A stretch of DNA of 43,071 bases, from the NCBI GenBank assembly GCA_029264355.1, contig JARIBW010000047.1, positions 1 through 43,071 of the forward strand, written 5' to 3'. Origin of the DNA: Collinsella sp. (lineage in GTDB: Bacteria > Actinomycetota > Coriobacteriia > Coriobacteriales > Coriobacteriaceae). Shown in pieces: positions 4 to 37,834 of this stretch. The position numbers and the translations under genes were made by a program. The notes beneath the pieces were generated by a model. That model was not told the DNA's origin and did not search any database. It saw only the letters and a list, made by a program, of their open reading frames with translations. Every line of letters starts with the position of its first letter. Within the stretch, counting starts at the first letter, position 1.

Positions 4-1056
4 CTATTCGGCGAAACGGTTCTTGTGATCCCAGCTGTGACGATACAGGTCATCCGAGACCAGGTAGTCGTAGATGTCGTCCACGATCTCGATGCCGCCG
101 GCCTCCTTCGTGGCCTTGATCCTGCCCTGCGCACGCTCACCCGGCCAGTAGACCTTGTCGAATCCGACACCCGGCTTGACCGCATTAAGCTCGTCGATGA
201 CCTCGGCCATGTGCTCGCGGAAGGCATCACCACCGCAGAAGAACTCGGGGTTGATGACGACGTTCAGGTGCCCCAGTCGACGCCCCTCGGAAAGATCGTG
301 GTACATGGAGCTGACGTGCTTGCCAGCCGGGACGCCCAGCAGGACGCCGGACAAGATGTCGACCATCATCATGAGGCCGTAGCCCTTGGGGCCCGCGATC
401 GCCACAAGCGCGTTGACCTTGTGGGGATCGGTAACGGGCAGGCCGTCCTCATCGACCGCCCAACCCTCGGGGATCGAGCGACCGGCACTCTTGGCGTCCA
501 AGATCTTGCCCCAGGCCTGCACGGTGGTCGCCATATCGAAGCTCACGATGCGCCCATCAGACGTCGGGGCGGCCAAGGCAATGGGGTTGGTGCCGTAAAA
601 CGGCTCGGCGCCGCCATAGGGAATGACCATGGGGTCGGATTGCGTGCAGGAAAGGCCGATCATGCCCTCCTTCGCCGCCATCTCCGTGTAGTAGCCGATG
701 GCCCCGGTGTGCGAGACGTTCGAAACGCCCACGAAACCGATGCCGTTCTCCCGCGCCATGTCGATGGCTCGGCGCATTCCCTCGATGGCGAACGGATAGC
801 CGCAGCCGTTGTCGGCGTCCAAGATGCCGGTGCACGGGCCCGTCTGCTCCCAGGTCACCTTGGGATCGATGGTCATTCCGCCCTTGGAGATGCGCTCGGT
901 GTAATACTCGACACGGACCTCTCCGTGGCTGTGCAGGCCGCGCTCGCTCGACCAGGTGAGCACCTCGGCCATATCGTCGGCATGATCGTCGTGCATGCCT
1001 GCCGCCATGAACTTCTTCTTCATCAGGGACTTGAGTTCTTCACGTGAAACGAGCAT
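4..1056 (-). CDS. allD: Ureidoglycolate dehydrogenase (AllD), malate/L-lactate dehydrogenase family
   Basis: NAD-dependent oxidation of ureidoglycolate to oxalurate in anaerobic allantoin breakdown; cytoplasmic. The 350-residue product follows E. coli AllD, as I recall that sequence, along its whole length: an early RGxHSHGxVRVEYY segment, a QSDPMVxPxGGAE segment, FDMATTVQAWGK, AAGPKGYGLMMM, VSSMY and a C-terminal GIEIVDDIY. Length is normal for the family. The frame is open upstream to 1143, but the ATG at 1056 is preceded by GGGAGG at good spacing and starts the family-typical N-terminus, so I chose it. It is the last gene in view of a minus-strand operon with two symporters, a DUF2877 protein and the FdrA-DUF1116 fusion, which supports AllD over sulfolactate or malate dehydrogenase relatives. 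The stop lies 4 bases from the window edge, so further operon genes (for example a carbamate kinase) may lie outside. Confidence 0.88.
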   Translation of the reverse strand: MLVSREELKSLMKKKFMAAGMHDDHADDMAEVLTWSSERGLHSHGEVRVEYYTERISKGGMTIDPKVTWEQTGPCTGILDADNGCGYPFAIEGMRRAIDMARENGIGFVGVSNVSHTGAIGYYTEMAAKEGMIGLSCTQSDPMVIPYGGAEPFYGTNPIALAAPTSDGRIVSFDMATTVQAWGKILDAKSAGRSIPEGWAVDEDGLPVTDPHKVNALVAIAGPKGYGLMMMVDILSGVLLGVPAGKHVSSMYHDLSEGRRLGHLNVVINPEFFCGGDAFREHMAEVIDELNAVKPGVGFDKVYWPGERAQGRIKATKEAGGIEIVDDIYDYLVSDDLYRHSWDHKNRFAE

Positions 1057-1139: not shown

Positions 1140-2390
1140 TCACACATCACCGTTGAACACGTCGTAGTCGATCCCCCCTTCGCTCTTGGCCACGAGTATC
1201 GCGCAGAACACGTCAGAGTTGACGTTCAGCGTCGTGCGGATGGCGGCCACGATGTACTCCAACCCGCCGAGGATGGCGATCGCATCCATAGGCAAGCCGA
1301 GGGCGGGGATCAGCATGGTGAGGGAGATCAAAGATGCCCCGGGTGCCACGGCGTTCGCCATCGACAGCGCCCAAGCGATGAAACAAACGGTGATGAGCGC
1401 ACTGCCCGTGAATTCCATGTTGTACATCTGCGATACGAAGACCGCCGTCAGCGCCATATGCAGAGCCGACCCGTTTGAGTTGATCGACACACCGAGAGGA
1501 AGGACCAAGTTGGAGATCTCCCGATCGAGGCCGATCCGGTTCTTGGCGTCCTCCATCTCGACCGGCAGGGTGACCGCCGAGGAAATGGTCGAGGCCGCCA
1601 TGACGGTCATGCGGAACATCTTTCGTGCGAGACGCACGATGGACATCTTGCAGGTAACGGCGATGACGATGAACCAGGCGACAGTGAAGATCGCGGTGCC
1701 GGCGGCGAGAGCGACGATGTACTTGCCGATGGGTAGCAGGATATCGAAGCCGAGAGAGCCAATGGATGCCGAAACATACGCGAAGATTCCGATAGGGGCC
1801 ACGTTCATCACGATGCGGATGATCGCTAGCAAGATCTGATTGAGCTCCTGTACCCAGCGATAGAACACGGGCTCTACACCGTTGGCCTCGTGCACGACCA
1901 CGATTCCCACGCCGAAGAAGACGGCGAAGACGATGCAGGGCACCATGGAGCCCGAGGCTATCGAACCGATGATATTGCTCGGGAAAAAGCCAAGGATGGT
2001 CTCCTGCAGCGTCATGGAGGTCGCCTGGAGATCGGTTGTCGCGTTCTGCACGAGCGCCGTGTCGGCCAGGCCCGCCCCGGGGTTCACCACCAGGGCCGTG
2101 AGGATGCCGAAAGCCGAAGCCAGAAGCGATGAGCCGAGGAACAGGACGATGGCCTTGAGACCGATACTGCCCAGCTGCTTGAACGACAGGGCCCCGATTG
2201 CCTCGATGATCTGGCACATCACGAATGGGACGATACCCATCTGAATCAGGCGGAAGAACACGTCGCCGATAAACTTGATATCGCCCATCCTGGGGCCGAA
2301 GACAAGACCGGAGGCGATGCCGAGCACCATGGCCACGATCATGGCGATGGTTGGACTGTACTTGCGTTTCTTGACAGCGGTTGAATTCAT
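1140..2390 (-). CDS. Dicarboxylate/amino acid:cation symporter (DAACS family), copy 2
   Basis: Polytopic membrane protein that would import an organic acid or amino acid with Na+ or H+. About 416 residues with the glutamate/dicarboxylate-transporter pattern: repeated hydrophobic segments, a serine-rich ISSAVTLP re-entrant loop around residue 270, the LPLGVSINSNGSALHM core and a GASLISLTMLIPALGLP tip. An in-frame GTG lies at 2399, but the GAGGAG at 2403-2408 is too close to it and suits the ATG at 2390 better. The start is therefore moderately certain. It sits between a paralogue (2607-3869) and allD and is clearly related to that paralogue in the core motifs. Given the neighbours, a ureido acid such as ureidoglycolate, oxamate or allantoate is a reasonable substrate guess, but the sequence does not show it. 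A 216-base gap with hairpins upstream suggests separate control from copy 1. Confidence 0.9.
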   Translation of the reverse strand: MNSTAVKKRKYSPTIAMIVAMVLGIASGLVFGPRMGDIKFIGDVFFRLIQMGIVPFVMCQIIEAIGALSFKQLGSIGLKAIVLFLGSSLLASAFGILTALVVNPGAGLADTALVQNATTDLQATSMTLQETILGFFPSNIIGSIASGSMVPCIVFAVFFGVGIVVVHEANGVEPVFYRWVQELNQILLAIIRIVMNVAPIGIFAYVSASIGSLGFDILLPIGKYIVALAAGTAIFTVAWFIVIAVTCKMSIVRLARKMFRMTVMAASTISSAVTLPVEMEDAKNRIGLDREISNLVLPLGVSINSNGSALHMALTAVFVSQMYNMEFTGSALITVCFIAWALSMANAVAPGASLISLTMLIPALGLPMDAIAILGGLEYIVAAIRTTLNVNSDVFCAILVAKSEGGIDYDVFNGDV

Positions 2391-2522
2391 TCGAATCACG
2401 CACTCCTCAGGGGACCACTCTCCCCCCTATTGGATGGTCACACCCCACGACGCCTTGGGCGCGGGGCCGCCCGCCCATGAAAGCGGACGACAAGGCTTTT
2501 AGGTCCGAGTGGGGACCAAGCT

Positions 2523-2606: not shown

Positions 2607-3869
2607 CTATGCCGCCTCGGCGTACTCCTTCTTTCCGTCGAAGACATCGTGGTCGATACCGTCAGGCCCAGCCACGAGCATGGCGGCAAAGATGTCACCA
2701 CCAACGTTGAGCGGGGTGCGGCAGGCACCGGTCGGGTACTCGAGCCCGCCGAAGATGCCAATAGCGGAGATGGGCAGGCCGAGAGCGGGAACCATCATGG
2801 TAAGGGACACCAGGGAGGCACCCGGAGTCGCGGCGTTCACGAAGGAGATCATGGTGCAGATAACCCAGCAGGTAAGGAGCTCTGACGGACCGAACTCGAT
2901 ACCATAGAGCTGGGCGATGCACAAAGCATCGACGGTCATGTGGATGGCCACGCCGTTGGAGTTCAGGGGGACTCCAAGGGGCAGAAGGACGTCAACCACG
3001 TCGGAACGAATGCCGATCTTTTTCTTAGAGTCCTCCATGGCGGTGGGCAGCGTGACGGCAGACGAGATGGTGGTGAATCCGGTGACGAGGCTGCGAGTCA
3101 TCTTGATGGCCAGCTTCACCGGGCTGACGCGGCAGTACAGGCCGCACACGACAAAGTAAGCGGCGAACATGATAAGCATACCGAGGACCATGACCATGAA
3201 GTATTTGGCCAGCGGCATCAGCACGTCCATACCCATGGAACCGACCATGGAGGAAACGTAGCAGAAGATTCCGATGGGCGCGAAGTTCATGACGGCGCGA
3301 ATTATGTTGAGCAGGAGGTCAGAGGTCTCGCAGAGCAGGTCGTACACCATGCACTCACCATTGTGCTCGTGACGCCAGAAGCTGATCACCAGGCCGAGGG
3401 CAACGGCGAAGATGATGATCTGGATCATGGAGCCGTTGGACAGGGAAGCGACGATGTTGTTGCCGAAAAAGCTGGTCAACGTATCCTGGATGCTCATCAT
3501 CGCTGTGGCCTCGCCCTCGAAATTGGCGTTGGCCATGACCGCCTCGGTACCAGCTCCGGCACCGGGCTTGAACACAACCCCCAGGAAAATGCCGAGGGCA
3601 GCGGCGATGCCGGAGGACACGATGAAGACGATAACACCTTTGAGACCGATTCCAGAAAGCGTCTGAGGCGTGAGGCCGCCGACGGACTTGATGACGGTCG
3701 CCATGACAAAGATGGGAATACACATCTGGATCAGGCGGAAGAAGATATCGCCGATGAATTGGATCTGGGACATCGCCTCGCCGCCGATGAGACCCGCGAT
3801 CACCGCGGCCAGCATCGAGAGCAGCAGCAGGACGGTGATGTCCATCTTTTTCTTCTTTGCTTCTGCCAT
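2607..3869 (-). CDS. Dicarboxylate/amino acid:cation symporter (DAACS family), copy 1
   Basis: 420-residue sodium/proton-dependent symporter with the same signature blocks as its neighbour: GDIFFRLIQM near the N-terminus, the TISSAVTLP serine-containing loop, LPLGVPLNSNGVAIHM, and GASLVSLTMMVPALGLP. The start ATG has a clear upstream AGAGGAAGG at good spacing. It lies 44 bases downstream of the DUF2877 gene, so it is probably in the oxamate-carbamoyltransferase operon. The two tandem copies have diverged in the residues flanking the NSNG core, which hints at different substrates, for example a paired uptake and product-exchange function. That is inference; the family covers glutamate, aspartate, C4-dicarboxylates and serine/threonine. 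Confidence 0.92.
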   Translation of the reverse strand: MAEAKKKKMDITVLLLLSMLAAVIAGLIGGEAMSQIQFIGDIFFRLIQMCIPIFVMATVIKSVGGLTPQTLSGIGLKGVIVFIVSSGIAAALGIFLGVVFKPGAGAGTEAVMANANFEGEATAMMSIQDTLTSFFGNNIVASLSNGSMIQIIIFAVALGLVISFWRHEHNGECMVYDLLCETSDLLLNIIRAVMNFAPIGIFCYVSSMVGSMGMDVLMPLAKYFMVMVLGMLIMFAAYFVVCGLYCRVSPVKLAIKMTRSLVTGFTTISSAVTLPTAMEDSKKKIGIRSDVVDVLLPLGVPLNSNGVAIHMTVDALCIAQLYGIEFGPSELLTCWVICTMISFVNAATPGASLVSLTMMVPALGLPISAIGIFGGLEYPTGACRTPLNVGGDIFAAMLVAGPDGIDHDVFDGKKEYAEAA

Positions 3870-3913: not shown

Positions 3914-4813
3914 TTATACCAAACAACAGAACGCGGCCGAGAACCCCAGAAGGCTGTCGGCCCCAGAGGTGTGGCCGACAGACAAGACCCGGCCTGCCTC
4001 CGAGGCGAGCGCCTCGTGATGGCACGATTCGAGCGCACCGAGGAGAGAGATGTAATCCCCGTTCGCATGCCCATCGCACATGGCACGCAGGTACGCTTCG
4101 CTCACCGCCGTGGTCTTGCCGGGAACCGAACGCACGACTTCCTCGAAGAACCGTTCCGTTTGCAATGCAGCTCGACCACCATGGATATAGCGCAGACCGG
4201 TCCCAAAACCCATGAGGACATCATCCCCCGATGGGGTGAGGCCCAGCCCGCGTCCCAACAGATAACCGACCGCGCTGCGCATACCGCGTCGAGCGGCCTC
4301 GGCGCGCTCGGGCGAAACAGACGTCCCGCCCTCCCACATTGCCCGGGAGACCGCCGAAAAACGTGCGAGGTCCGCAAGCGACCGGCTGGCACGGGCGTCC
4401 CAGGGCAATCCGATACGGGCGGGCAGGTCGAAATCGGACATGCAGCGCGAGACCAGGATATCCATTCCCTCGAGGCGCTCTGGGCACGATGTGGGAACCG
4501 CCGTACCGAGAACCTCGACGGTGCTCAGATCAATCTCGACGACATCGGCCCGGCCATACAGGCGCAAGGCCCCGTTGCGGAAACTGACAAGGTCCCCAGG
4601 GCTCATGAGCCGGCTCAGATGGGACGCCCCCTCGGGTTCGACCGTCAACCCCAGGCAGGAAAGCGAAGAGTCGGCCGAGCCGATATGCAGCAGGAATCCG
4701 TTGAACCCGACGTTCAGGCTCGTGCGGAACACGCTGTGAACGCTTCCCGTCGCCACATGCGAATCCCGTTCGCTGACGACGTAGTCGCTGATTGAGAGGG
4801 CGTCCAGCTTCAT
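3914..4813 (-). CDS. allH: DUF2877 protein (YlbF/AllH-like), oxamate carbamoyltransferase component
   Basis: 299-residue soluble protein recognised as DUF2877 by its GYLLGRGLGLTPSGDDVLMGFGTGL segment (about residues 185-209) and the downstream VSEAYLRAMCDGHANGDYISLLGAL-like region. In E. coli the equivalent gene ylbF lies with fdrA and ylbE; I recall that these three (renamed allF, allG, allH) were reported to be required for oxamate carbamoyltransferase, which converts oxalurate and phosphate to oxamate and carbamoyl phosphate. Here it starts 12 bases after the stop of the FdrA-DUF1116 fusion, so the two are almost surely translated from one mRNA, and its ribosome binding site overlaps that stop region. 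The gene order matches E. coli, with the first two proteins fused. The role as a subunit is inferred from family and context. Confidence 0.8.
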   Translation of the reverse strand: MKLDALSISDYVVSERDSHVATGSVHSVFRTSLNVGFNGFLLHIGSADSSLSCLGLTVEPEGASHLSRLMSPGDLVSFRNGALRLYGRADVVEIDLSTVEVLGTAVPTSCPERLEGMDILVSRCMSDFDLPARIGLPWDARASRSLADLARFSAVSRAMWEGGTSVSPERAEAARRGMRSAVGYLLGRGLGLTPSGDDVLMGFGTGLRYIHGGRAALQTERFFEEVVRSVPGKTTAVSEAYLRAMCDGHANGDYISLLGALESCHHEALASEAGRVLSVGHTSGADSLLGFSAAFCCLV

Positions 4814-4825
4814 ATGCCGCCTCGC

Positions 4826-7800
4826 CTACTCGATACCGAGCTTGGCGCAGTACGCCTCGAGGGCCTTCTCGAAGCAGGCGAGCGGGGCGCGGACGGTACC
4901 GGCACCGACCTGGCCGATGCCCGCCTCTTTATGCGCGATGCCGGTGTTGATGATGGGCGTGATACCCGTCTCGACCACCTTGCGGATGTCGATGCCAAGG
5001 CAGGCCCCCTTGAAATCCCATGTCGGGATAGCCCAGTTGGGATTATGGGTGACGCAGATTTTCTCCATCTCGTTCGAGATGTTCAGCGCGTCTCCAAAGC
5101 CGCCGGCGCCGACGAACCGTGTGACGCCCGGTGCGGCCACCATGGCCATGCCACCGACGCCGACCGTCTCGCAAATCGCGGAGTCACCGTTGTCCGGGCA
5201 TCCGTCCTCAGCGGTGAATCCGGTGAAATACAGGCCGACCGGGGTGTTCACGGGAGCCACGAACCACTCGTCGCCCAATCCGGAAACGCGCACGCCGAAC
5301 TCGTAGCCGTTGCGCGTCATGGTGGAGACCACGCAGCCCTCGACGTCCTTGCGAACGTAGTCGACGATCGACTTGCCGGTCGCCATCATCACGTTCAGGA
5401 AGAACTGGTCAGTGTCGGCCAGGAACTGGATGACGCGCTGTTTGGCATCCTCGCTCGCATCGGTCTTGACGATGAGCGGGGCGACCTCCTTGAGGAAGTT
5501 GAGAGTGGCGGCCATGTTCCGCTGATGAAACTCATCGCCTTGGGTAATGGCGCGGGCCATCAGGACGTTCAGGTTGATACCGCCGTCGGAGAGCTTGAGT
5601 GCCTTGGCGAGCACCGGTCCGAGTTCGTCGGCCATCCAATGCAGGCGGTCGACGACCTCCTGGCTGTAGGCGCCAAACCGCAGGACCTTGCCGATGCCCT
5701 CGTTCATGGTGCAGTAGGCGACGGTGTCGTCGGCCAGGTTCCGAACCACGAGCACGGCCATGTTCGCCGAGGTGATACCACCCATGGGGCCTACGGCGTG
5801 GCAGTGGTGGCAGGGGATGAACTCGACCTCGCCCGCGGAGAGCATGGCCAGGGCCTCCTCCTCGGTCTTCGCCCAGCCCTCGAAGAGGGCGGCACCTATG
5901 CACGAACCCCTCATCGGCCCCTGCATGTTCTCCCAGCAAATCGGAGGACCAGCATGGAGCAGGGTCTTCTGGGCGCGATTGAGCTCGGGGATGACGGTCT
6001 TGGCCGGGACGACGTCGACCAGCACGGGCTGCGACTCCTTGAACCGCTCGCAGATGCGCGCGTTCGCCTCGTCGATACCCTCAATCTTCTCCAGCTCGCT
6101 GAGCAGGTGGATCATGCGCTTATTGCCGCCGGCCTTCGGCTTCCACGTGTATTGGACGCTCTCGGCGCCATATGCGCGCAGCGGGTCGTTGAAGCTCTCG
6201 ACGCCAACGTTGATGACACGCGGCTTGGCGGTGAGCAGCTCCATGACGGCCTCGGAGGGCTCGGGCAACGGGCTGTCATCCTTGATCTCGTAGGGGACGA
6301 CGCCGCGATCGGCCTCGGTGAACTCGATGCCCTTGAAGGCGAGGGCGGCGCGGACGGCCATGGCGTTGCTGGGCTCCATGATGGCACCGGCCTCTTCGAG
6401 CAGCCTCACGGAACGATCGTAATCCTGGGGATCGTGATGAGTGCCCACGACGGTGCCCACGAATCTGACCTCGCGCCCCTCGGAGCGCGCGGACTCGATG
6501 CACTCCGCTATGACCGGGGCGAGCTCGGCGGCCATGTCGGGATGGCAACCGTAGCCGAGAACGCAGTCGAAGAGAATGACGCCCGTGGTGTCCTTGTCGG
6601 CGTAATCGCGCATCATGCGGATACGGACCTCAGGGTCGATCATGGGGTGCGGACGGCCCTGCGTGTACACGTCGTCGCCGAGATCGATGACGTCGTAGCC
6701 GTCGTGGCGCAGCATGTAGCCGTCTTCCTTGATGATGGAGCCGAGCTTGAGAGCCTCGGTGACCATCATCGCGGCCTCTCCGGCGAGCGTGCCGCCGGAA
6801 TACAGGCCGATCACGGTCTTGTCCTTGGGAAGCGGGGATTGCACCTCGACGTCGAGAGGCTCGAGGTAGTTCTTCTTGACGGCCTCCCCATTCGCCAAAT
6901 CGACGGCGATGCGCGCGGCCTCCTCGAGGGTGTGCGCGAGGTGCACCTTCCCGAGATGCGCCTCGGGCTTTTCGCCGATGAAGATGGCGACAACCGGCTT
7001 TTCGCACTTCTCCAGCAGATCGACGACCTCATCGCGGACGGCGGGCGCCGGCGGTTTGGAGATGACGCATATGACGTCGGTGGGATCGTGATGCTCGAGG
7101 GCGACGATGGCATCCTTGACCGTCACGGCGCCGACCTTCTCGTTGAGATCGCGGCCACCGGTCCCTATGGCGTGTACGCACCCGCCGCCCAGACGGTCGA
7201 TCATGCAGGTGACCTCCTGGATGCCGGTGCCCGAAGCGCCCACGATGCCGATGTTGCCTGGGTTGATGACGTTGGTGAAGGCGATTGGCACAGAAGAGAC
7301 CACCCCGGTCCCGCAGTCGGGGCCCATGAAGAGGAGCCCCTGCTCATGTGCCTTGCGCTTGAGACGGACCTCGTCCTCCAGGGGGACGTTGTCGGTGAAG
7401 GAGAAGACGTTCAGGCCCAGGTCGAGGGCCCGCTCGAGCTCGGGCGCCGCATACTCGCCGGGGATGGAGAACAGCGCCATGTTCGCCTCGGGCAACATGG
7501 CCATGGCCTCCTCCCAGCTCGTCGCCTCGGCGGGCGCCCCGGCCGCTTCCTTCTTTGTGGAGAGGTCTGACAGGAAGGTCTCGGCCTCCGCCAATACGGT
7601 CTCCATGACACCCTCGTCTTCGGTCTCGACGACGATGACCATATCGCTGGGGGCAGCCGCCTCCGCCTCGGTCGTCAACAGGCCAGCGGCCCGGTAGATA
7701 TCCTTATTCGCATCGGTGCCCATCATGATCTGGCTCTGGACGACACCGTCGAGCGTGTTGATCTTATTGGTCAGCAGCATCAGGTTGATGGAATCCTGAT

Positions 7801-7831
7801 AGGAGTTTTGCTTGACCACGGTTTTCAGCAT
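4826..7831 (-). CDS. FdrA-DUF1116 fusion protein (FdrA/AllF joined to YlbE/AllG)
   Basis: A 1001-residue single ORF joining two proteins that are separate in E. coli. Residues 1 to about 565 are FdrA: an N-terminal alpha/beta region, then a CoA-ligase-like nucleotide-binding part with GASGTG near residue 197 and GTGGRDLNEKVG after it. From about residue 573 (a Met encoded at 6113-6115) the sequence follows E. coli YlbE closely, with LLHAGPP, a CHHCHAVGPMGG motif near residue 673, GDEFHQRN and a long conserved C-terminus ending ...GIGQVGAGTVRAPLACFE. The start at 7831 has a strong GAGGAGGAA site; the open frame upstream to 8407 is not used. Expected function: the catalytic part of oxamate carbamoyltransferase with the DUF2877 partner. 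No stop, frameshift or clear internal ribosome site is seen at the junction, so it looks like a real fusion. Confidence 0.88.
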   Translation of the reverse strand: MLKTVVKQNSYQDSINLMLLTNKINTLDGVVQSQIMMGTDANKDIYRAAGLLTTEAEAAAPSDMVIVVETEDEGVMETVLAEAETFLSDLSTKKEAAGAPAEATSWEEAMAMLPEANMALFSIPGEYAAPELERALDLGLNVFSFTDNVPLEDEVRLKRKAHEQGLLFMGPDCGTGVVSSVPIAFTNVINPGNIGIVGASGTGIQEVTCMIDRLGGGCVHAIGTGGRDLNEKVGAVTVKDAIVALEHHDPTDVICVISKPPAPAVRDEVVDLLEKCEKPVVAIFIGEKPEAHLGKVHLAHTLEEAARIAVDLANGEAVKKNYLEPLDVEVQSPLPKDKTVIGLYSGGTLAGEAAMMVTEALKLGSIIKEDGYMLRHDGYDVIDLGDDVYTQGRPHPMIDPEVRIRMMRDYADKDTTGVILFDCVLGYGCHPDMAAELAPVIAECIESARSEGREVRFVGTVVGTHHDPQDYDRSVRLLEEAGAIMEPSNAMAVRAALAFKGIEFTEADRGVVPYEIKDDSPLPEPSEAVMELLTAKPRVINVGVESFNDPLRAYGAESVQYTWKPKAGGNKRMIHLLSELEKIEGIDEANARICERFKESQPVLVDVVPAKTVIPELNRAQKTLLHAGPPICWENMQGPMRGSCIGAALFEGWAKTEEEALAMLSAGEVEFIPCHHCHAVGPMGGITSANMAVLVVRNLADDTVAYCTMNEGIGKVLRFGAYSQEVVDRLHWMADELGPVLAKALKLSDGGINLNVLMARAITQGDEFHQRNMAATLNFLKEVAPLIVKTDASEDAKQRVIQFLADTDQFFLNVMMATGKSIVDYVRKDVEGCVVSTMTRNGYEFGVRVSGLGDEWFVAPVNTPVGLYFTGFTAEDGCPDNGDSAICETVGVGGMAMVAAPGVTRFVGAGGFGDALNISNEMEKICVTHNPNWAIPTWDFKGACLGIDIRKVVETGITPIINTGIAHKEAGIGQVGAGTVRAPLACFEKALEAYCAKLGIE

Positions 7832-8054: not shown

Positions 8055-9728
8055 ATGGACGTTCGCGAAGCCTTGCTATTACCGTCCTTCGCCGATGCGG
8101 AGGTCATGGCCGGAGCCGCGGGGCTCGGCAACGAGCTCTCAAGCGCCATGGTTCTCGAGGCCGCGGACATCGAGAACTGGGGCAAGCGCGGGCAGCTCAT
8201 CATCACGAGCTTCTTTGCCCTGCAAGAGTTCTCGGATGCCGACATGGCCCGCTTCTTCCACACCATGAGCACCCTGGGGATCGCCGCGATGGCCTTCAAG
8301 CCAGCGCGCCTGTGGCCGAGCGCGCCCGACAACGTGATCGCGCTGTGCGAGGATTTCGGGGTGCCGCTCATCAAGCTCAGCCCCACGGTCAAATATGAGG
8401 CCATCATGCTAGACGTGCTCGGTCACGTCCTCGATTCCAACCTCACCCTGCTCAACCGCTTCTACGATGCGCATCGACACACGATGGCGCTCGCACTCAA
8501 ACAGCCATCGATCCCCTATATCCTCAACACCCTCAAAAACACGCTGCGTATGGACGTGAGCTATCTCGACACCACACGCGACCGCCGCCTGGGCACCGAC
8601 CCATCACTCCTGAAATTCAGCGCGTACTCGTTTACGCGGAGAGAGCCCAGCGCCCTGCAGACGCACGCCTACTTCGACGCGACCCTTTACTTCGACGACC
8701 CCCCGTTCACCGACGAGAAACCCACCGCCGAGCGCCTGCGGGAGACTTTTTCGGACGAGGGGGGCCGAGGTTGCGATCGCAGCCAGAAGGCGCTCGCCGT
8801 GAGGATCCCCAGTTCCGATGGGATCGACTACTACCTGCTCGTCCACGAATCAGACGTCCAATTGACGCCCCTCGACGTCATGACGATCGAGAACATCGTG
8901 GGCCTGATCCAGATGAAGATCTTGGAGCAGAACGCGATCAAGCAGAAGCTGTTCATCCAGAACAACAACGCCGTGCACGACCTACTGCTCGACCGCTGCG
9001 GATCGGGAGAGCGCCTGGACTCCATGCTCACCGTGTTGGGAATCGATGAGTACCCCTTCTACGAGGTGCTGTACGTGCGTGTCAACCTGTCGGACAGCAC
9101 CGACATCGACCGTCTCGACGAACTGCAGCAGGCGATTCGGCGTCGGATTCGAAGCGCCTATCCCGGAATCGTCTACTTCATCAACAACGACCGCATCGTG
9201 TTCCTGCACAACTTCCGCAGCCCGCTCACGAGATTCGACCTCGACCTCATCCAAAGCACGCTCGAGAAGCTGCACGCCTCCTCGACGCTCCCCCTCTTCA
9301 CGCACCTCATCACCCTCAGCTCCATCGTCGATAAGCATGGGCTCGCCCGGGCCAACACCGAGGTGCTCAATGTGGCGCGTCTGTTCGACGGGCCGACCCA
9401 CGCCGATCGAGCCGTCCGCTTCGAAGACCTGGGAGCCTACAAACTGCTGCTCGCCGCATCGGATCTCTCGCAGCTCGCCGGGTACATGGACCCACGCGTG
9501 GTGCAGCTGTCCGAGAAGCAGCCCGAGCTGTTCACCACGCTTGTGACCTTCTGCGAGAACGGTATGGATTTCTCAAAGACGGGCCAGGACCTCTTCATCC
9601 ATCCCAAAACGGTGCGCTACCGCGTAGATCGAGCGAGACAATCCTACGGGGTCGACGTCAAAAACCCCGATGATTTTCTGCAGGTGATGCTCACCAGCAA
9701 GATCATGGCGCTGGGCGGAGAGGGCTGA
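8055..9728 (+). CDS. PucR-family transcriptional regulator
   Basis: 557-residue cytoplasmic regulator. The N-terminal ~125 residues have the PucR (purine-catabolism regulator) domain pattern: VREALLLPSFADAEVMAGAAGL, an ENWGKRGQLIITSFFAL strand-helix segment, and a CEDFGVPLIKLSP end. The C-terminus (about residues 490-550) is the helix-turn-helix of this family, with FSKTGQDLFIHPKTVRYRVDRA. The middle part would sense a ligand or another signal. Start ATG follows GAAGGAG at normal spacing. It is divergent from the ureidoglycolate/oxamate operon and probably controls it, either as an activator responding to a purine breakdown product (PucR and AllS-like roles are known for such pathways) or as a repressor. 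It is followed after 30 bases by a hydrolase gene, probably co-transcribed. Confidence 0.85.
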   Translation: MDVREALLLPSFADAEVMAGAAGLGNELSSAMVLEAADIENWGKRGQLIITSFFALQEFSDADMARFFHTMSTLGIAAMAFKPARLWPSAPDNVIALCEDFGVPLIKLSPTVKYEAIMLDVLGHVLDSNLTLLNRFYDAHRHTMALALKQPSIPYILNTLKNTLRMDVSYLDTTRDRRLGTDPSLLKFSAYSFTRREPSALQTHAYFDATLYFDDPPFTDEKPTAERLRETFSDEGGRGCDRSQKALAVRIPSSDGIDYYLLVHESDVQLTPLDVMTIENIVGLIQMKILEQNAIKQKLFIQNNNAVHDLLLDRCGSGERLDSMLTVLGIDEYPFYEVLYVRVNLSDSTDIDRLDELQQAIRRRIRSAYPGIVYFINNDRIVFLHNFRSPLTRFDLDLIQSTLEKLHASSTLPLFTHLITLSSIVDKHGLARANTEVLNVARLFDGPTHADRAVRFEDLGAYKLLLAASDLSQLAGYMDPRVVQLSEKQPELFTTLVTFCENGMDFSKTGQDLFIHPKTVRYRVDRARQSYGVDVKNPDDFLQVMLTSKIMALGGEG

Positions 9729-15150: not shown

Positions 15151-16047
15151 TTAGCTGGCTTGGGGGTCTGCCCCGTTGGCAAAGACTTTCATGACCTCAA
15201 TGAAGTCAGCGGTTAAGCGCTCATACGCCACCGTAGTCATATCGTGCCAATACACGGTCGCAGAATTATCCGCCTTCCGCCGCGCATCGACCAAATCGAG
15301 TACCGCCTCTCCCGCATACTTCACACCGTACGTGTAATAATTGATCTTTCGTATGCCCGCGCTAATTGCCTTTCGATAGTCATCATCAGAGACTCCCGAA
15401 CCACCGTGCATCACCAGCGGAACACACACGCGCTCGCGAATACGCTCGAGAACATCAAATGACAGATGGGGCTCTCCACGATATAGACCGTGGACGGTAC
15501 CGAACGAGCATGCCAGGATATCCAATCCCGTAGACCGGGCAAAATCGCATGCTTGAACGGGATCGGTGTATGTCGCACCGGAACCGCCCTCGGGCGCGGA
15601 AGCCCCGTCTGAAAGAACATCCCCCTCGCGGGCTCCAAGGCTTCCGAGCTCGCATTCCAGTCCACAGTCAAATCCAGAGCACATAGCGGCGGCTCGAACC
15701 GAGTTGGCGACATTTTCCTCATAGGGCAACGCCGACCCATCGTACATCACGCCGTTGAAGCCCATCTCGAGGGCACGGCGCATATAGGAAAGATGCTCGC
15801 AATGGTCGAGGTGCACGCACACCTGGGCATGTGAGCGCTCCGCAAGGGCAACCATGGAAGGGCCCATCACGTCGAGCGGGGTTATGTCCTCATGGCACTC
15901 GGCGTGCTGAATGATCACCGGATAGCCCGTGGCTTCGGCGGCATCTATAGCCGCCCTGACGGCCTCAAGACTCGGCGTGTTGAAGGCCGCGATGGCCATG
16001 TTGCCCTGTTCGGCAATCGCACAGACATCACGCAGATTCACAAGCAT
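15151..16047 (-). CDS. Class II fructose/tagatose-bisphosphate aldolase family protein
   Basis: 298-residue zinc-dependent aldolase of the FbaA/GatY/KbaY family. The catalytic Asp is in H79-L-D81-H82; His82, His186 (SFGTVHG) and His214 (HGGSG) are the expected zinc ligands, and the YTDPVQACDF segment is family-typical. It should split a ketose-1,6-bisphosphate or ketose-1-phosphate into dihydroxyacetone phosphate and an aldehyde. The start has AAGGAAAGGA upstream. It lies within the galactitol-type PTS operon, which favours a tagatose-bisphosphate-like substrate, but no tagatose-6-phosphate kinase is in view, so a monophosphate substrate is also possible. Confidence 0.88.
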   Translation of the reverse strand: MLVNLRDVCAIAEQGNMAIAAFNTPSLEAVRAAIDAAEATGYPVIIQHAECHEDITPLDVMGPSMVALAERSHAQVCVHLDHCEHLSYMRRALEMGFNGVMYDGSALPYEENVANSVRAAAMCSGFDCGLECELGSLGAREGDVLSDGASAPEGGSGATYTDPVQACDFARSTGLDILACSFGTVHGLYRGEPHLSFDVLERIRERVCVPLVMHGGSGVSDDDYRKAISAGIRKINYYTYGVKYAGEAVLDLVDARRKADNSATVYWHDMTTVAYERLTADFIEVMKVFANGADPQAS

Positions 16048-16098
16048 GTTTGTTCCTTTCCTTGATTAACACCAGAATTTGAGCATGCGACAGGCGTC

Positions 16099-16758
16099 CT
16101 ACGCATCCTCGCTCAAAGGCTTCTGCCCGTAACGGTGAAATACGGCCACAGCCTCGTCAATCTGTTCCTGCGTCATGTCGGCCATGGGAAGCCCCGTCGA
16201 AAGCGCAACGGCCACCGTCTTGGCAGCCTCTTCAAGGTAGACGCAAGAATACAACGCTTGGCGAAGATCGCGTCCGACGGCGATTACCCCATGGTGCTTG
16301 AGCACCACCGCGAGCTTATCGCCGATAGCCCGAACGGCCTCGATTCCCATCGACAAACTCCCGGGATCCCCATAGGCAGCCACGGAAACGGGCCCCTCGG
16401 TCGCGTTCGCCATCGTCGAGAGATTGCAGGGAATCTCATCCAAAACGAGGCCCAGTCCCGTGGCATATGGCTGATGGGTGTGGATAACAGCATTCACCTC
16501 AGGTTTACACCGGTAGATATAAAGCAGGGCATCCGTATCGACCGAAGCCTTCCTCTCCCCCTCCAAAACGTTACCATCCATATCGACAACCAAAATGTCC
16601 TCATAGGTCATCTCGTCGTAAATCATTCCGGAGGGCGTCACGAGCACCTCCCCCGTCGGCATTTTCCAACTTACGTTCCCACCGGAAAGGGCAATAAGCC
16701 CATAACGATCGAGCTTGAGCGCCGCGTCCAGGACCGAGCGTCTTTCATCTTCAAACAT
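16099..16758 (-). CDS. Class II aldolase/adducin family protein (FucA/AraD-like)
   Basis: 219-residue zinc enzyme of the family that contains L-fuculose-1-phosphate aldolase and L-ribulose-5-phosphate 4-epimerase. Visible marks are SGGNVSW near residue 25 (phosphate binding), VTPSG, an acidic region, IHTHQPYAT (zinc His pair), KHHGVIAVG (further His) and LEEAAKT. The THQ motif, rather than the NHA I recall from FucA, leaves aldolase and epimerase both possible. The ribosome binding site AAAGGAG overlaps the end of the upstream membrane-protein gene, so the two are coupled. A second aldolase-type enzyme in one operon suggests cleavage or epimerisation of a pentulose or deoxyhexulose phosphate. 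Confidence 0.82.
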   Translation of the reverse strand: MFEDERRSVLDAALKLDRYGLIALSGGNVSWKMPTGEVLVTPSGMIYDEMTYEDILVVDMDGNVLEGERKASVDTDALLYIYRCKPEVNAVIHTHQPYATGLGLVLDEIPCNLSTMANATEGPVSVAAYGDPGSLSMGIEAVRAIGDKLAVVLKHHGVIAVGRDLRQALYSCVYLEEAAKTVAVALSTGLPMADMTQEQIDEAVAVFHRYGQKPLSEDA

Positions 16759-16770
16759 GATTGACTCCTT

Positions 16771-17310
16771 TTATGCTCGTCCGCCCCGCCTAGAATGACG
16801 TCGAGACGGAACCTGCTTTCGTTTTGATTCGGCATTCAGGTATTCGGAGTTGACCCTGCGGGCCCGAGCTTTAAGGCTGTCGGGGTGCTTGGCATACTCC
16901 AAATCGCAGATTCGACCGAACAATTCGCGACCATCTCGCATCGCACGCGTCTGGATCCAATAACGACCCCGCAGCAAACCTCCCCCGTTTACTCGAACGT
17001 ACATCTTTCCCGCGGATGGAAACTCCCTCACGCGAAACTCGCTCACGTTGGAGAGTTCATAGGAATCGACACGTCCCCAGGCGCCGAACTCGATTTTGTC
17101 ATCCGAGACCGAGACCGTGCGCGGATTAGAAATAGCAACGAACGTGTTCCATACCTGGTACGCCGCAGGCACCATCAACACGACCATAATCCCGGGCATG
17201 ACACCGCGCATCGCCAGGACAGGGCAAACCACCAAGGCCGCCACACAGATGATGCCGGTCAGGACGACCTCGACAAAAAAGTAGCGGTCTATGTAAGTGT
17301 AGGTCTTCAT
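16771..17310 (-). CDS. Small membrane protein with PH-like domain, unknown function
   Basis: 179-residue protein. Two hydrophobic segments (about residues 8-28 and 34-55) form a hairpin anchor, followed by a soluble region with the bacterial PH-domain-like pattern (SDDKIEFGAWGRVDSYELSNVSEFRV, then strands to about residue 135) and a basic tail rich in Arg/Lys. I chose the Met at 17310, preceded by GGAG at 7 bases, rather than the longer frame to 17352. No enzyme motif is seen. It is embedded between the PTS IIC and aldolase genes, an unusual neighbour for a sugar operon; it might influence localisation or stability of the permease, but that is a guess. Confidence 0.7.
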   Translation of the reverse strand: MKTYTYIDRYFFVEVVLTGIICVAALVVCPVLAMRGVMPGIMVVLMVPAAYQVWNTFVAISNPRTVSVSDDKIEFGAWGRVDSYELSNVSEFRVREFPSAGKMYVRVNGGGLLRGRYWIQTRAMRDGRELFGRICDLEYAKHPDSLKARARRVNSEYLNAESKRKQVPSRRHSRRGGRA

Positions 17311-35017: not shown

Positions 35018-37834
35018 ATGAGTCGCCGCACGACCGAACTGCTCCTGCTCATAGCCGCCGCGTTCCCCGTCACGCTGCTCTACGCCATGTACGTGGTCAC
35101 CACGGGCGCCGCGCTCTCCTTCCAGACGCTGGCCGTCCCGCTGGGGCTGTTCGCCGCGTTCGCCGCGGCCCACATCGGCGTGCGCGTCTTCGCGCCCGGC
35201 GCCGACCCGGCGATCCTGCCCATCGTGTTCACGCTCTCGGGGATCGGCGTCACCTTCGTCACGCGCCTGCAGCCCGACGCGTCGCTCGGCCAGGTGATCT
35301 ACCTGTTCCTGGGCGTGGCCCTCATGGTGGGCACGCTCGCCGCGGTGAAGAACCTCGACGTCGTCAAGCACTACAAATACGCCCTGGGCATCGCCGGCAT
35401 CATCTTGCTCGTGCTGCCCATGTTCATCGGCACCGAGATCTACGGCTCCAAGCTGTGGATCAAAATCGGCAGCTTCCAGTTCCAGCCCGGTGAGTTCGCC
35501 AAGGTCCTCATCGTCTTGTTCCTCGCCGGCTACCTGGCCGAGAACCGCGAGCTGCTGTCCATCTCGAATCGCACCGTGCTCGGCATCAAGTTCCCGCGTC
35601 TGCGATTGCTCTACCCGCTGTTCATCGTGTGGGGCGTCTGCCTGCTCGTCGTCGCGTTCGAACGCGACCTGGGCAGCGCACTGCTGTTCTACACCATCTT
35701 CTTGATCATGCTCTACGTGGCCACGGGCCGCGTTTCCTACGTGATCATCGGCCTCGCGCTGCTGGCCGTGGGCGCATTCGGCATGTACCAGATCATGAGC
35801 CACGTGCAGGTCCGCGTGGCCATCTGGCTCGACCCGTTCTCCGATGCGCAAAACCTCGGCTACCAGATCGTCCAATCGCTGTTCTCCCTGGCGGACGGCG
35901 GTCTCGCGGGCGTCGGCATCGGCAAGGGCATGGCCGACATCATCCCCGTCGTGGCCTCCGACATGATCTTCGCCGCGATCGGCGAGGAGATGGGCCTGCT
36001 CGGCGGCACCGCGGTCCTGCTTTTGTTCATGCTGTTCGCGGTCCGCGGACTCACCACAGCCGCGCGAGCCAAGTCCGACCTGGCGGCCTTCTCGGCCGCC
36101 GGCCTCACCGCGGCCATCTCCTTCCAGGCCTTCACCATCGTGGGCGGCGTCACCAAGCTCATCCCGCTCACCGGCGTGACCCTGCCCTTCATGAGCCAGG
36201 GCGGCTCATCCCTGCTCGCGAGTTTCGTGATCGTGGGCCTGCTGCTGCGCGCCGGCGATGAGGCCACCGGCCGCTCAACCGAGATCGCCAACACGAGCAC
36301 CGACTTGGCCGGCGCGGGCTATCGCACCACCGTACGCGGCTCCCACATGCGCCGTCCCGCCCTCGACACCCCCGAGAGCGGCCTGCTCGGCCGCGTGGCG
36401 CTCGCCAACCGCCTCACACGCACCGTGTTCCTGTTCACCGCGCTGTTCGCCGTGCTCATCGGCAACATCACCTATATCCAGGTGATCAAGGCCTCCGAAT
36501 ACCAGGACATGCCGAGCAACAACCACACCATCAACAAGGCGCGCTACATCAAGCGCGGCTCGATCATCACCGCCGACGGCCTGACACTCGCCGAGTCCAT
36601 CCAGCAGGCGGACGGCACGTACGCCCGCTCCTACCCCAACGGCAACCTCGCCGCGCACGTGGTGGGCTACTACTCGCAGCAGTACGGCACCATGGGCATC
36701 GAGAACACGCAAAACGACACGCTCACGGGGTCCAAGGATTACTCGAGCTGGCAAAACGCCCTCAACTCGCTCGCCGGCATCAGCGAGCCCGGAAACTCCG
36801 TCCAGCTCACCATCGACTCGCGCATCCAGCGCGCAGCCGAGCAGGCGCTCGCCGGCCGCGTGGGCGCCATCGTCGCCCTCGACCCGCGCAGCGGCGCCGT
36901 GCTCGCCTGGGCCAGCGCGCCCACGTTCGACAACGCGAACATCCAGGCCGCGATCGAGGCCGCCAACGCCAGCGGGGGTGTAGACACCTCCATGTACGAC
37001 CGCGCCACCCTCGCGCTCTACACGCCGGGCTCCACCTTCAAGGTCCTCACACTCGCCTCGGCCCTCGAGAACGGCCTGGCCACGCTCGACACCACCTACA
37101 ACAGCCCGGGGCGCATGGAGATCGGCGGCGCGGACGTCGTGAGCATCGGCGAACGCGGCCACGGCACCATCTCCCTGGCCAGGGCCTTCGCGCTCTCGTC
37201 CAATACGGTCTTCGGCCAAGTGGCCGACGGCCTGGGCGCCGACAAGCTCGTGGCCACGGCGCGCGCCTTCGGCTACGGCCAAAAACTCGGCCTGGACTTC
37301 ACCACCGCCGCATCCATCATGCCCAACCCCGAGGAGATGACCGAGTGGGAGCTCGCCTGGGCGGGCGCCGGTCAGCCCGTCGGCCAGGGGCACACGCCCG
37401 GCCCGCAGGCGACCGTGATGCAAAACGCGCTCATGGCGGCCACGATCGCCAACAACGGCATCGCCATGAACCCCTACGTGGTCTCGCAGATCCTCGCGCC
37501 CGACGGCACGGTCCTCAAGACCACGCGCGGGCGCTCCCTCGGCCAAGCCGTGAGCAGCGGCACCGCCGAGCAGGTCAAGCAGGCCATGCTCGACGTCGTC
37601 CAGAACGGCACCGGCTCGGCCGCGTCGATCGCGGGCGTGAAGGTGGCCGGCAAGACCGGCACGGCCGAGACCAACAACGCCACCGCGAACTCCACGTTCG
37701 TTGGATTTGCCCCCTACGACACCCCCACCGTGGCAATCGCCGTCGTGATCGAGCAGAACGCGAAGGGCGAGCAGAGCGCGGCGGGCGTGGGAGGACAGGT
37801 CCTGCGAGCGGCGCTCGCGACACAGGGGCTGTAG
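35018..37834 (+). CDS. RodA/FtsW-penicillin-binding protein fusion (SEDS glycosyltransferase + class B transpeptidase)
   Basis: 938 residues in one frame. Residues 1 to ~405 are a SEDS peptidoglycan polymerase with about ten membrane helices, a FQPGEFAK motif, WLDPFSDAQNLGYQ loop and PLTGVTLPFMSQGGSS signature. A ~45-residue linker leads (about residue 444) to a membrane anchor (FLFTALFAVLIGNITYIQVI), a PBP dimerisation-type domain and a transpeptidase: S672-T-F-K675, S727-S-N729, K879-T-G881. In mycobacteria rodA and pbpA are adjacent separate genes at this position; here the junction has no stop or internal RBS. The fused protein would polymerise and cross-link glycan with 1:1 stoichiometry. 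ATG follows the pstP stop with no gap; GGGAGG lies ~12 bases upstream. Confidence 0.93.
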   Translation: MSRRTTELLLLIAAAFPVTLLYAMYVVTTGAALSFQTLAVPLGLFAAFAAAHIGVRVFAPGADPAILPIVFTLSGIGVTFVTRLQPDASLGQVIYLFLGVALMVGTLAAVKNLDVVKHYKYALGIAGIILLVLPMFIGTEIYGSKLWIKIGSFQFQPGEFAKVLIVLFLAGYLAENRELLSISNRTVLGIKFPRLRLLYPLFIVWGVCLLVVAFERDLGSALLFYTIFLIMLYVATGRVSYVIIGLALLAVGAFGMYQIMSHVQVRVAIWLDPFSDAQNLGYQIVQSLFSLADGGLAGVGIGKGMADIIPVVASDMIFAAIGEEMGLLGGTAVLLLFMLFAVRGLTTAARAKSDLAAFSAAGLTAAISFQAFTIVGGVTKLIPLTGVTLPFMSQGGSSLLASFVIVGLLLRAGDEATGRSTEIANTSTDLAGAGYRTTVRGSHMRRPALDTPESGLLGRVALANRLTRTVFLFTALFAVLIGNITYIQVIKASEYQDMPSNNHTINKARYIKRGSIITADGLTLAESIQQADGTYARSYPNGNLAAHVVGYYSQQYGTMGIENTQNDTLTGSKDYSSWQNALNSLAGISEPGNSVQLTIDSRIQRAAEQALAGRVGAIVALDPRSGAVLAWASAPTFDNANIQAAIEAANASGGVDTSMYDRATLALYTPGSTFKVLTLASALENGLATLDTTYNSPGRMEIGGADVVSIGERGHGTISLARAFALSSNTVFGQVADGLGADKLVATARAFGYGQKLGLDFTTAASIMPNPEEMTEWELAWAGAGQPVGQGHTPGPQATVMQNALMAATIANNGIAMNPYVVSQILAPDGTVLKTTRGRSLGQAVSSGTAEQVKQAMLDVVQNGTGSAASIAGVKVAGKTGTAETNNATANSTFVGFAPYDTPTVAIAVVIEQNAKGEQSAAGVGGQVLRAALATQGL

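Follow-up and report, generated by a model that had tools for sequence, protein, structure and literature searches.

The window analysed here (43,071 nucleotides of a Collinsella sp. draft genome, GenBank assembly GCA_029264355.1, contig JARIBW010000047.1) contains an open reading frame in which two proteins that are separate in E. coli are joined in one chain. The locus raises the question of whether this is a genuine single gene, how the two proteins meet within it, and what such an enzyme would do for the bacterium.

One intact gene for AllF and AllG

The frame (P0001) lies on the minus strand at 4826..7831 and encodes 1001 residues; the initial annotation had given its position, length and single frame correctly. 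It begins with the ATG at 7831 behind a strong Shine-Dalgarno sequence (GAGGAGGAAGCA-ATG) and ends with a stop codon at 4828-4826. Third-position G+C is 0.84-0.89 over the entire gene, the junction included, and a frameshift or stop near 6115 was looked for and neither was found. The draft genome is in 53 contigs, one of which makes up the window, and this leaves room for the thought that assembly or sequencing created the fusion, but the probability of this is negligible: the same full-length stop-free frame was found in 13 of the 67 genomes of the family (72-100% identical), in 15 Coriobacteriia and in about 52 Lactobacillales. An artefact or frameshift is ruled out because the full-length frame recurs in related genomes of the family, in the class-wide sample and in Lactobacillales, many species in two phyla, and the coding bias is even. 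This is one intact gene joining AllF (FdrA) and AllG (DUF1116) in the order F-s-G, s being a small module at the junction.

The two families, named FdrA and DUF1116 in the initial annotation, are partners in the oxamate carbamoyltransferase, or oxamic transcarbamylase, AllFGH of E. coli (Kim & Kim 2024, PMC11326118). The AllF part (aa 1-525, 6257..7831, minus strand) combines a succinyl-CoA-synthetase-alpha-like domain with a Ligase_CoA domain. The NCBIfam FdrA model PRK06091 matches aa 1-580 with 652 bits (cut-off 433). Pfam does not return the PF06263-type FdrA domain that had been expected; in its place it gives CoA_binding (PF02629) at aa 191-286 (44 bits, cut-off 22.3) and Ligase_CoA (PF00549) at aa 343-498 (98 bits, cut-off 24.5). 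The AllG part (aa 586-1001, 4829..6076, minus strand) carries PF06545 at aa 669-884 (287.6 bits, cut-off 27). The third subunit is encoded by allH (DUF2877, PF11392; 84 bits, cut-off 25) at 3914..4813 on the minus strand. Its start at 4813 lies 12 bases past the fusion stop codon, as had been noted, and its 299-residue product is a separate polypeptide here; the gene adjoins the fusion in 52 of the 57 fused loci. AllH has two invariant motifs, G-x-GLTPxGDD and GxxSGxD.

An AlphaFold2 model of the 1001-residue fusion was built from 126 related sequences, with the two E. coli rows left out, and as a single chain reached a mean pLDDT of 92.2 and a pTM of 0.83. Had the two parts floated freely, a distinctly lower pTM would be expected. 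A value of 0.83 is high for a two-part chain of 1001 residues, and the model thus predicts with confidence how F and G lie relative to each other. In AllF, residues 12-319 match the succinyl-CoA synthetase alpha fold (Z ~17). The E. coli FdrA chain 3dmy aligns by sequence to aa 86-581, and superposition of the model on this crystal structure as a whole is poor (rmsd ~19 Å over 422 residues); the AllF halves are thus arranged differently in the crystal. The Enterococcus faecalis DUF1116 chain 3clq aligns to aa 579-999 and has the fold of the AllG part (Z 64 over 418 residues, 44% identity), but it is unfused and its chain is numbered 56-474; the crystal thus seems to begin just past the place that an s module would occupy. 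AllH was modelled well (pLDDT 94.5, pTM 0.93), and its comparison with the PDB gave no convincing match (no Foldseek hit at E <0.001; best Z 6.1), a result that does not by itself prove a new fold.

The succinyl-CoA synthetase alpha subunit and NDP-forming acyl-CoA synthetases share the fold and the CoA-binding and Ligase_CoA domains with AllF, but no ATP-grasp nucleotide-binding domain is among the Pfam and NCBIfam matches of the fusion and the AllFGH reaction proceeds without CoA. With respect to the phosphohistidine region of the alpha subunit, the sequence match of the fusion stops at position 237 of 291. The aspartate, ornithine and putrescine transcarbamylases catalyse the same kind of reaction, but no sequence or fold similarity between them and the fusion was found, and no OTCase-type (ATCase/OTCase) domain was detected in the Pfam and NCBIfam scans.

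Two further large frames were noticed in the window. At 35018-37834 on the plus strand, a 938-residue frame is a natural SEDS-PBP fusion: a SEDS glycosyltransferase (FtsW/RodA type) occupies aa 67-414, and the dimerisation domain and transpeptidase of a class B penicillin-binding protein occupy aa 513-923. At 40084-43071 on the minus strand, a large frame of surface type runs off the contig end; its repeats are of the Laminin_G_3, bacterial Ig-like, BNR (sialidase-like) and Flg_new kinds.

A small module at the junction

The initial annotation let the FdrA-like part run to about residue 565 and the DUF1116 part begin at about residue 573. The two parts stand, but that border falls inside a third element that had been overlooked, module s (aa 529-583, 6083..6247, minus strand). 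The module measures ~57 residues and follows the pattern V-I-N-x-G-...-W-x-P-P-A-G-G-N, which in the fusion reads W563-x-P565-x-A567-G568-G569-N570; G543, W563, P565 and G569 are nearly invariant. It is predicted to fold as beta-alpha-beta-alpha (pLDDT 85-96).

Module s was spotted from the ends and starts of split allF and allG genes. A profile made from six seeds and refined twice was run on 100 loci, and exactly one copy was found in 99 of these. The sole exception, in which the profile found no copy, is a weak AllG-like locus without AllF (L196). Four arrangements occur. The module is inside the fusion in 57 loci, at the tail of AllF in 16 (E. coli AllF, the split Lactobacillales allantoin operons and three other genomes) and at the head of AllG in 18, to which E. 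coli YahG is added; in the remaining 8 it has a small open frame of its own, placed between allF and allG. The order of the fusion is read as F-s-G because the module is found once per locus in these four forms, with 57 of the copies inside the fusion. The free frames are ~57-60 residues long and lie between allF-like and allG-like genes (L181, L185, L186, L191, L192, L193, L194, L198). In three of these loci (L191, L192, L193), two tandem AllG-type genes follow one AllF-type gene and the free module.

The homology of the module is secure, since free copies align with the final 50 positions of the FdrA model of NCBIfam (E 1e-14 and 6e-13). Within NCBIfam only the C-terminus of PRK06091 is matched, and no match above chance was obtained against Pfam. 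Domain borders based on E. coli FdrA or on AllG family models cut through module s or omit it, and small genes of this kind between allF and allG may escape annotation.

A module that moves from gene to gene in this way suggests a location where AllF and AllG meet. From the gene arrangement, the conservation and the global confidence of the model, s is most likely a bridge between AllF and AllG, close to the active site. A more far-reaching proposal is that oxamate carbamoyltransferase is a four-module enzyme in which the active site between AllF and AllG is completed by s, a part that is indispensable yet able to move, whether as AllF tail, AllG head, free mini-protein or joint of a fusion; we give this about an even chance.

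The single chain could still yield the usual three-protein enzyme if it were cut after synthesis or if an internal start at codon 530 also produced s-AllG. The initial annotation had seen neither a stop nor an internal ribosome-binding site between the parts. The stop is indeed absent, but an ATG at codon 530 with an upstream GAGG is present at the head of s, where YahG-type proteins begin. It is not a convincing start: of the 57 fused genes just 11 have a start codon with such a motif here, control positions gave 0-6, and the coding bias is continuous. The internal start giving a separate AllG was rejected for want of clear conservation, and the wider idea of cutting or internal initiation is highly improbable.

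Distribution and history of the fusion

Named carriers in the Coriobacteriia are Collinsella massiliensis, C. provencensis, C. phocaeensis, C. vaginalis, Enorma and Olsenella. Fusions that are 66-68% identical are found in the Bacillota: in Vagococcus silagei, Granulicatella seriolae, one Aerococcaceae genome and one Enterococcaceae genome. In the class-wide sample, AllG was present in 22 of 298 Coriobacteriia genomes; 15 of these have it fused, in frames of 1000-1198 aa that were checked locally for both parts and that all belong to two families, and 7 have it split. Among Lactobacillales, AllG was detected in 109 of 395 genomes, with 51 AllG matches in frames of at least 1000 aa and one more truncated by the end of its contig, or about half of the genomes with AllG. 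The wider Bacillota sample added one further fusion (G1020; locus L154).

Phylogenetic analysis groups the fusion protein with E. coli AllF and AllG and not with the YahFG type, on which the AllG, AllF and concatenated trees agree. A clade of E. coli, fused and Lactobacillales split sequences has SH-aLRT support of 100 in the AllG tree, apart from the YahFG type, and the same clade is supported at 100 in the concatenated tree and at 92 in the AllF-only tree. The YahE-YahF-YahG operons (E. coli yahEFG and many Bacillota) resemble the present locus in having AllH-, AllF- and AllG-type families and module s, but the AllH-type gene comes first, s heads the AllG-type protein and the genes are separate.

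The coriobacterial fusions form a single clade nested among the Bacillota fusions, which suggests that the fusion was transferred between phyla. A single unbroken origin was rejected: constraining all fused rows to one clade gave an AU p of 0.005, because the fused L154, itself on a long branch, groups with split Lactobacillales genes. This leaves two fusion events, or a single one followed by a split. In the AllG tree, which was built without the module s columns, there were at least 7 changes among the four arrangements of s. For the shift of s from AllG to AllF, a fused ancestor and a free mini-gene joining either neighbour cannot be told apart; the free-s relatives near the allantoin clade (L191-L193) favour the mini-gene. 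One genome (G700) has three paralogous AllFG systems with three arrangements of the module: internal (L121), at the AllF tail (L169) and at the AllG head (L170). Beside the fusion of an Olsenella (L018), a lone second AllG-type gene at 15557-16984 on the plus strand has a long branch and no AllF of its own.

The reaction and its metabolic setting

The enzyme itself is known, and the fusion represents a variant of it. E. coli AllFGH, identified recently and serving nitrogen recycling, interconverts oxamate plus carbamoyl phosphate and oxalurate plus Pi, and all three genes are required (PMC11326118). The E. coli system shares with the present one its three protein families, the order F-s-G-H, an adjacent allD and a nearby carbamate kinase, and s is located on the AllF tail, next to the beginning of AllG. 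In E. coli, however, AllF (555 aa) and AllG (419 aa) are separate, the regulator is the LysR-type AllS whereas a PucR-type one is found here, and the cluster is a complete allantoin cluster with allK directly after allH.

Physical association of the subunits, which the initial annotation presented as directly evidenced by the fusion, had already been observed, since untagged AllG was purified together with His-tagged AllF and AllH (PMC11326118); a gene fusion is indirect evidence, and the earlier wording was too strong. The proposed 1:1 ratio of AllF to AllG held up. It is fixed by the fusion and agrees with the unproven guess of equal numbers by Kim & Kim 2024 (PMC11326118), where subunit numbers were only estimated and the heteromer was not predictable with AlphaFold-Multimer.

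It had also been proposed that substrate may be handed between the two parts. Such channelling, with AllF and AllG doing successive steps and the fusion passing on an intermediate, draws on the succinyl-CoA-synthetase-like fold of AllF, a family that uses phosphoryl and acyl intermediates. But oxalurate plus Pi is converted to oxamate plus carbamoyl phosphate in a single step with no known intermediate to pass, the fusion has no ATP-grasp match, and a shared site accords better with a conserved module that either protein can carry. Channelling is accordingly very unlikely, and a shared active site is simpler than a hand-over because the reaction is single-step and without an intermediate. The single chain F-s-G would be the core of an oxamic transcarbamylase working with a separate AllH, with a composite active site of AllF, AllG and s for oxalurate + phosphate <-> oxamate + carbamoyl phosphate. 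Module s would be a bridge that needs the same position whichever gene encodes it, and here it would also link the two large parts.

Downstream of the fusion on the minus strand are two carriers of the sodium:dicarboxylate symporter family (SDF; PF00375) at 2607..3869 and 1140..2399, and allD, encoding ureidoglycolate dehydrogenase, at 4..1056 (start taken as the ATG at 1056; TIGR03175, 525 bits, cut-off 496). A divergent PucR-type regulator of 557 residues (PF07905, PF13556) lies at 8055..9728 on the plus strand. SDF carriers are present in most fused loci, and a divergent PucR adjoins nearly all coriobacterial and most Lactobacillales fusions. The usual coriobacterial order is divergent PucR, F-s-G, AllH, two SDF carriers, AllD and often carbamate kinase.

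In this genome (97.6% complete), family searches found no AllB (allantoinase) over the cut-off and no AllC match; a complete allantoin pathway, taken as AllB plus AllC in the genome, thus appears to be absent. Allantoinase exceeded the cut-off in only 2 of 19 fusion-bearing genomes tested. These gaps bear on the possibility that the fused enzyme, though related to oxamate carbamoyltransferase, phosphorolyses some other carbamoylated acid. The superfamily of AllFGH is a broad one, with YahEFG types and tandem AllG types, many fused loci are without AllB, AllC and AllE, and E. coli AllF is just 39% identical to the AllF part of the fusion. Nevertheless a different acid is unlikely: AllD over the cut-off is encoded in the same operon in 10 of 11 coriobacterial genomes tested, the fusion is placed with support in one clade together with E. 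coli AllFG and with split genes from complete allantoin operons, and four Lactobacillales fusions and one Collinsella fusion are clustered with allB, allC, allE or allW.

Only one carbamate kinase in the genome exceeds the cut-off (364 bits), in an agmatine-deiminase cluster on contig C26. Bases 1-127 of the window equal the last 127 bases of that contig, an assembly overlap that joins the two, and the agmatine-deiminase operon is therefore placed beside the oxalurate operon. About 1.6 kb on, on the same strand of C26, come a true putrescine carbamoyltransferase, an antiporter, agmatine deiminase and the carbamate kinase, the last 6 kb beyond AllD across the overlap. Two routes to carbamoyl phosphate lying side by side could share one kinase. 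In one Lactobacillales locus (L176, 10037-11800), a 588-residue AllH-carbamate kinase (AllK) fusion directly follows split allF and allG, which hints that the product could be handed on in this case.

We consider it probable that F-s-G together with AllH is an oxamic transcarbamylase with a composite site and s as its bridge, used catabolically in this bacterium. The operon is best read as serving to ferment ureidoglycolate or oxalurate, taken up from outside, to carbamoyl phosphate and ATP. The SDF carriers, at a guess from their family membership, would import either compound, AllD would oxidise ureidoglycolate to oxalurate, F-s-G with AllH would split the oxalurate, and the carbamate kinase of the adjoining agmatine-deiminase operon would give ATP, CO2 and ammonia. 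We infer, for the fused protein, its activity and the location of its site where F, s and G meet, and for the pathway the part played by the carriers and the direction in which flux runs. The title of Vander Wauven 1986 (cited in PMC6022934) refers to a pathway of oxalurate catabolism in Streptococcus faecalis that has a carbamate kinase of its own, and as worded it fits catabolic oxalurate use.

The enzyme, its three genes and their association were already known; new here are the fusion and its wide spread, module s with its four arrangements, and the ureide-fermentation context. In the open-access papers searched, no mention of the fusion or of module s was found. A single chain with a fixed 1:1 ratio of AllF to AllG is convenient for crystallography, cryo-EM and kinetics, and the wandering of s points to the likely interface and to W563, P565 and G569 as residues to mutate. 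In the gut, species of Collinsella, Enorma and Olsenella appear able to use a ureide of purine origin, provided by other organisms, as a source of ATP and ammonia.
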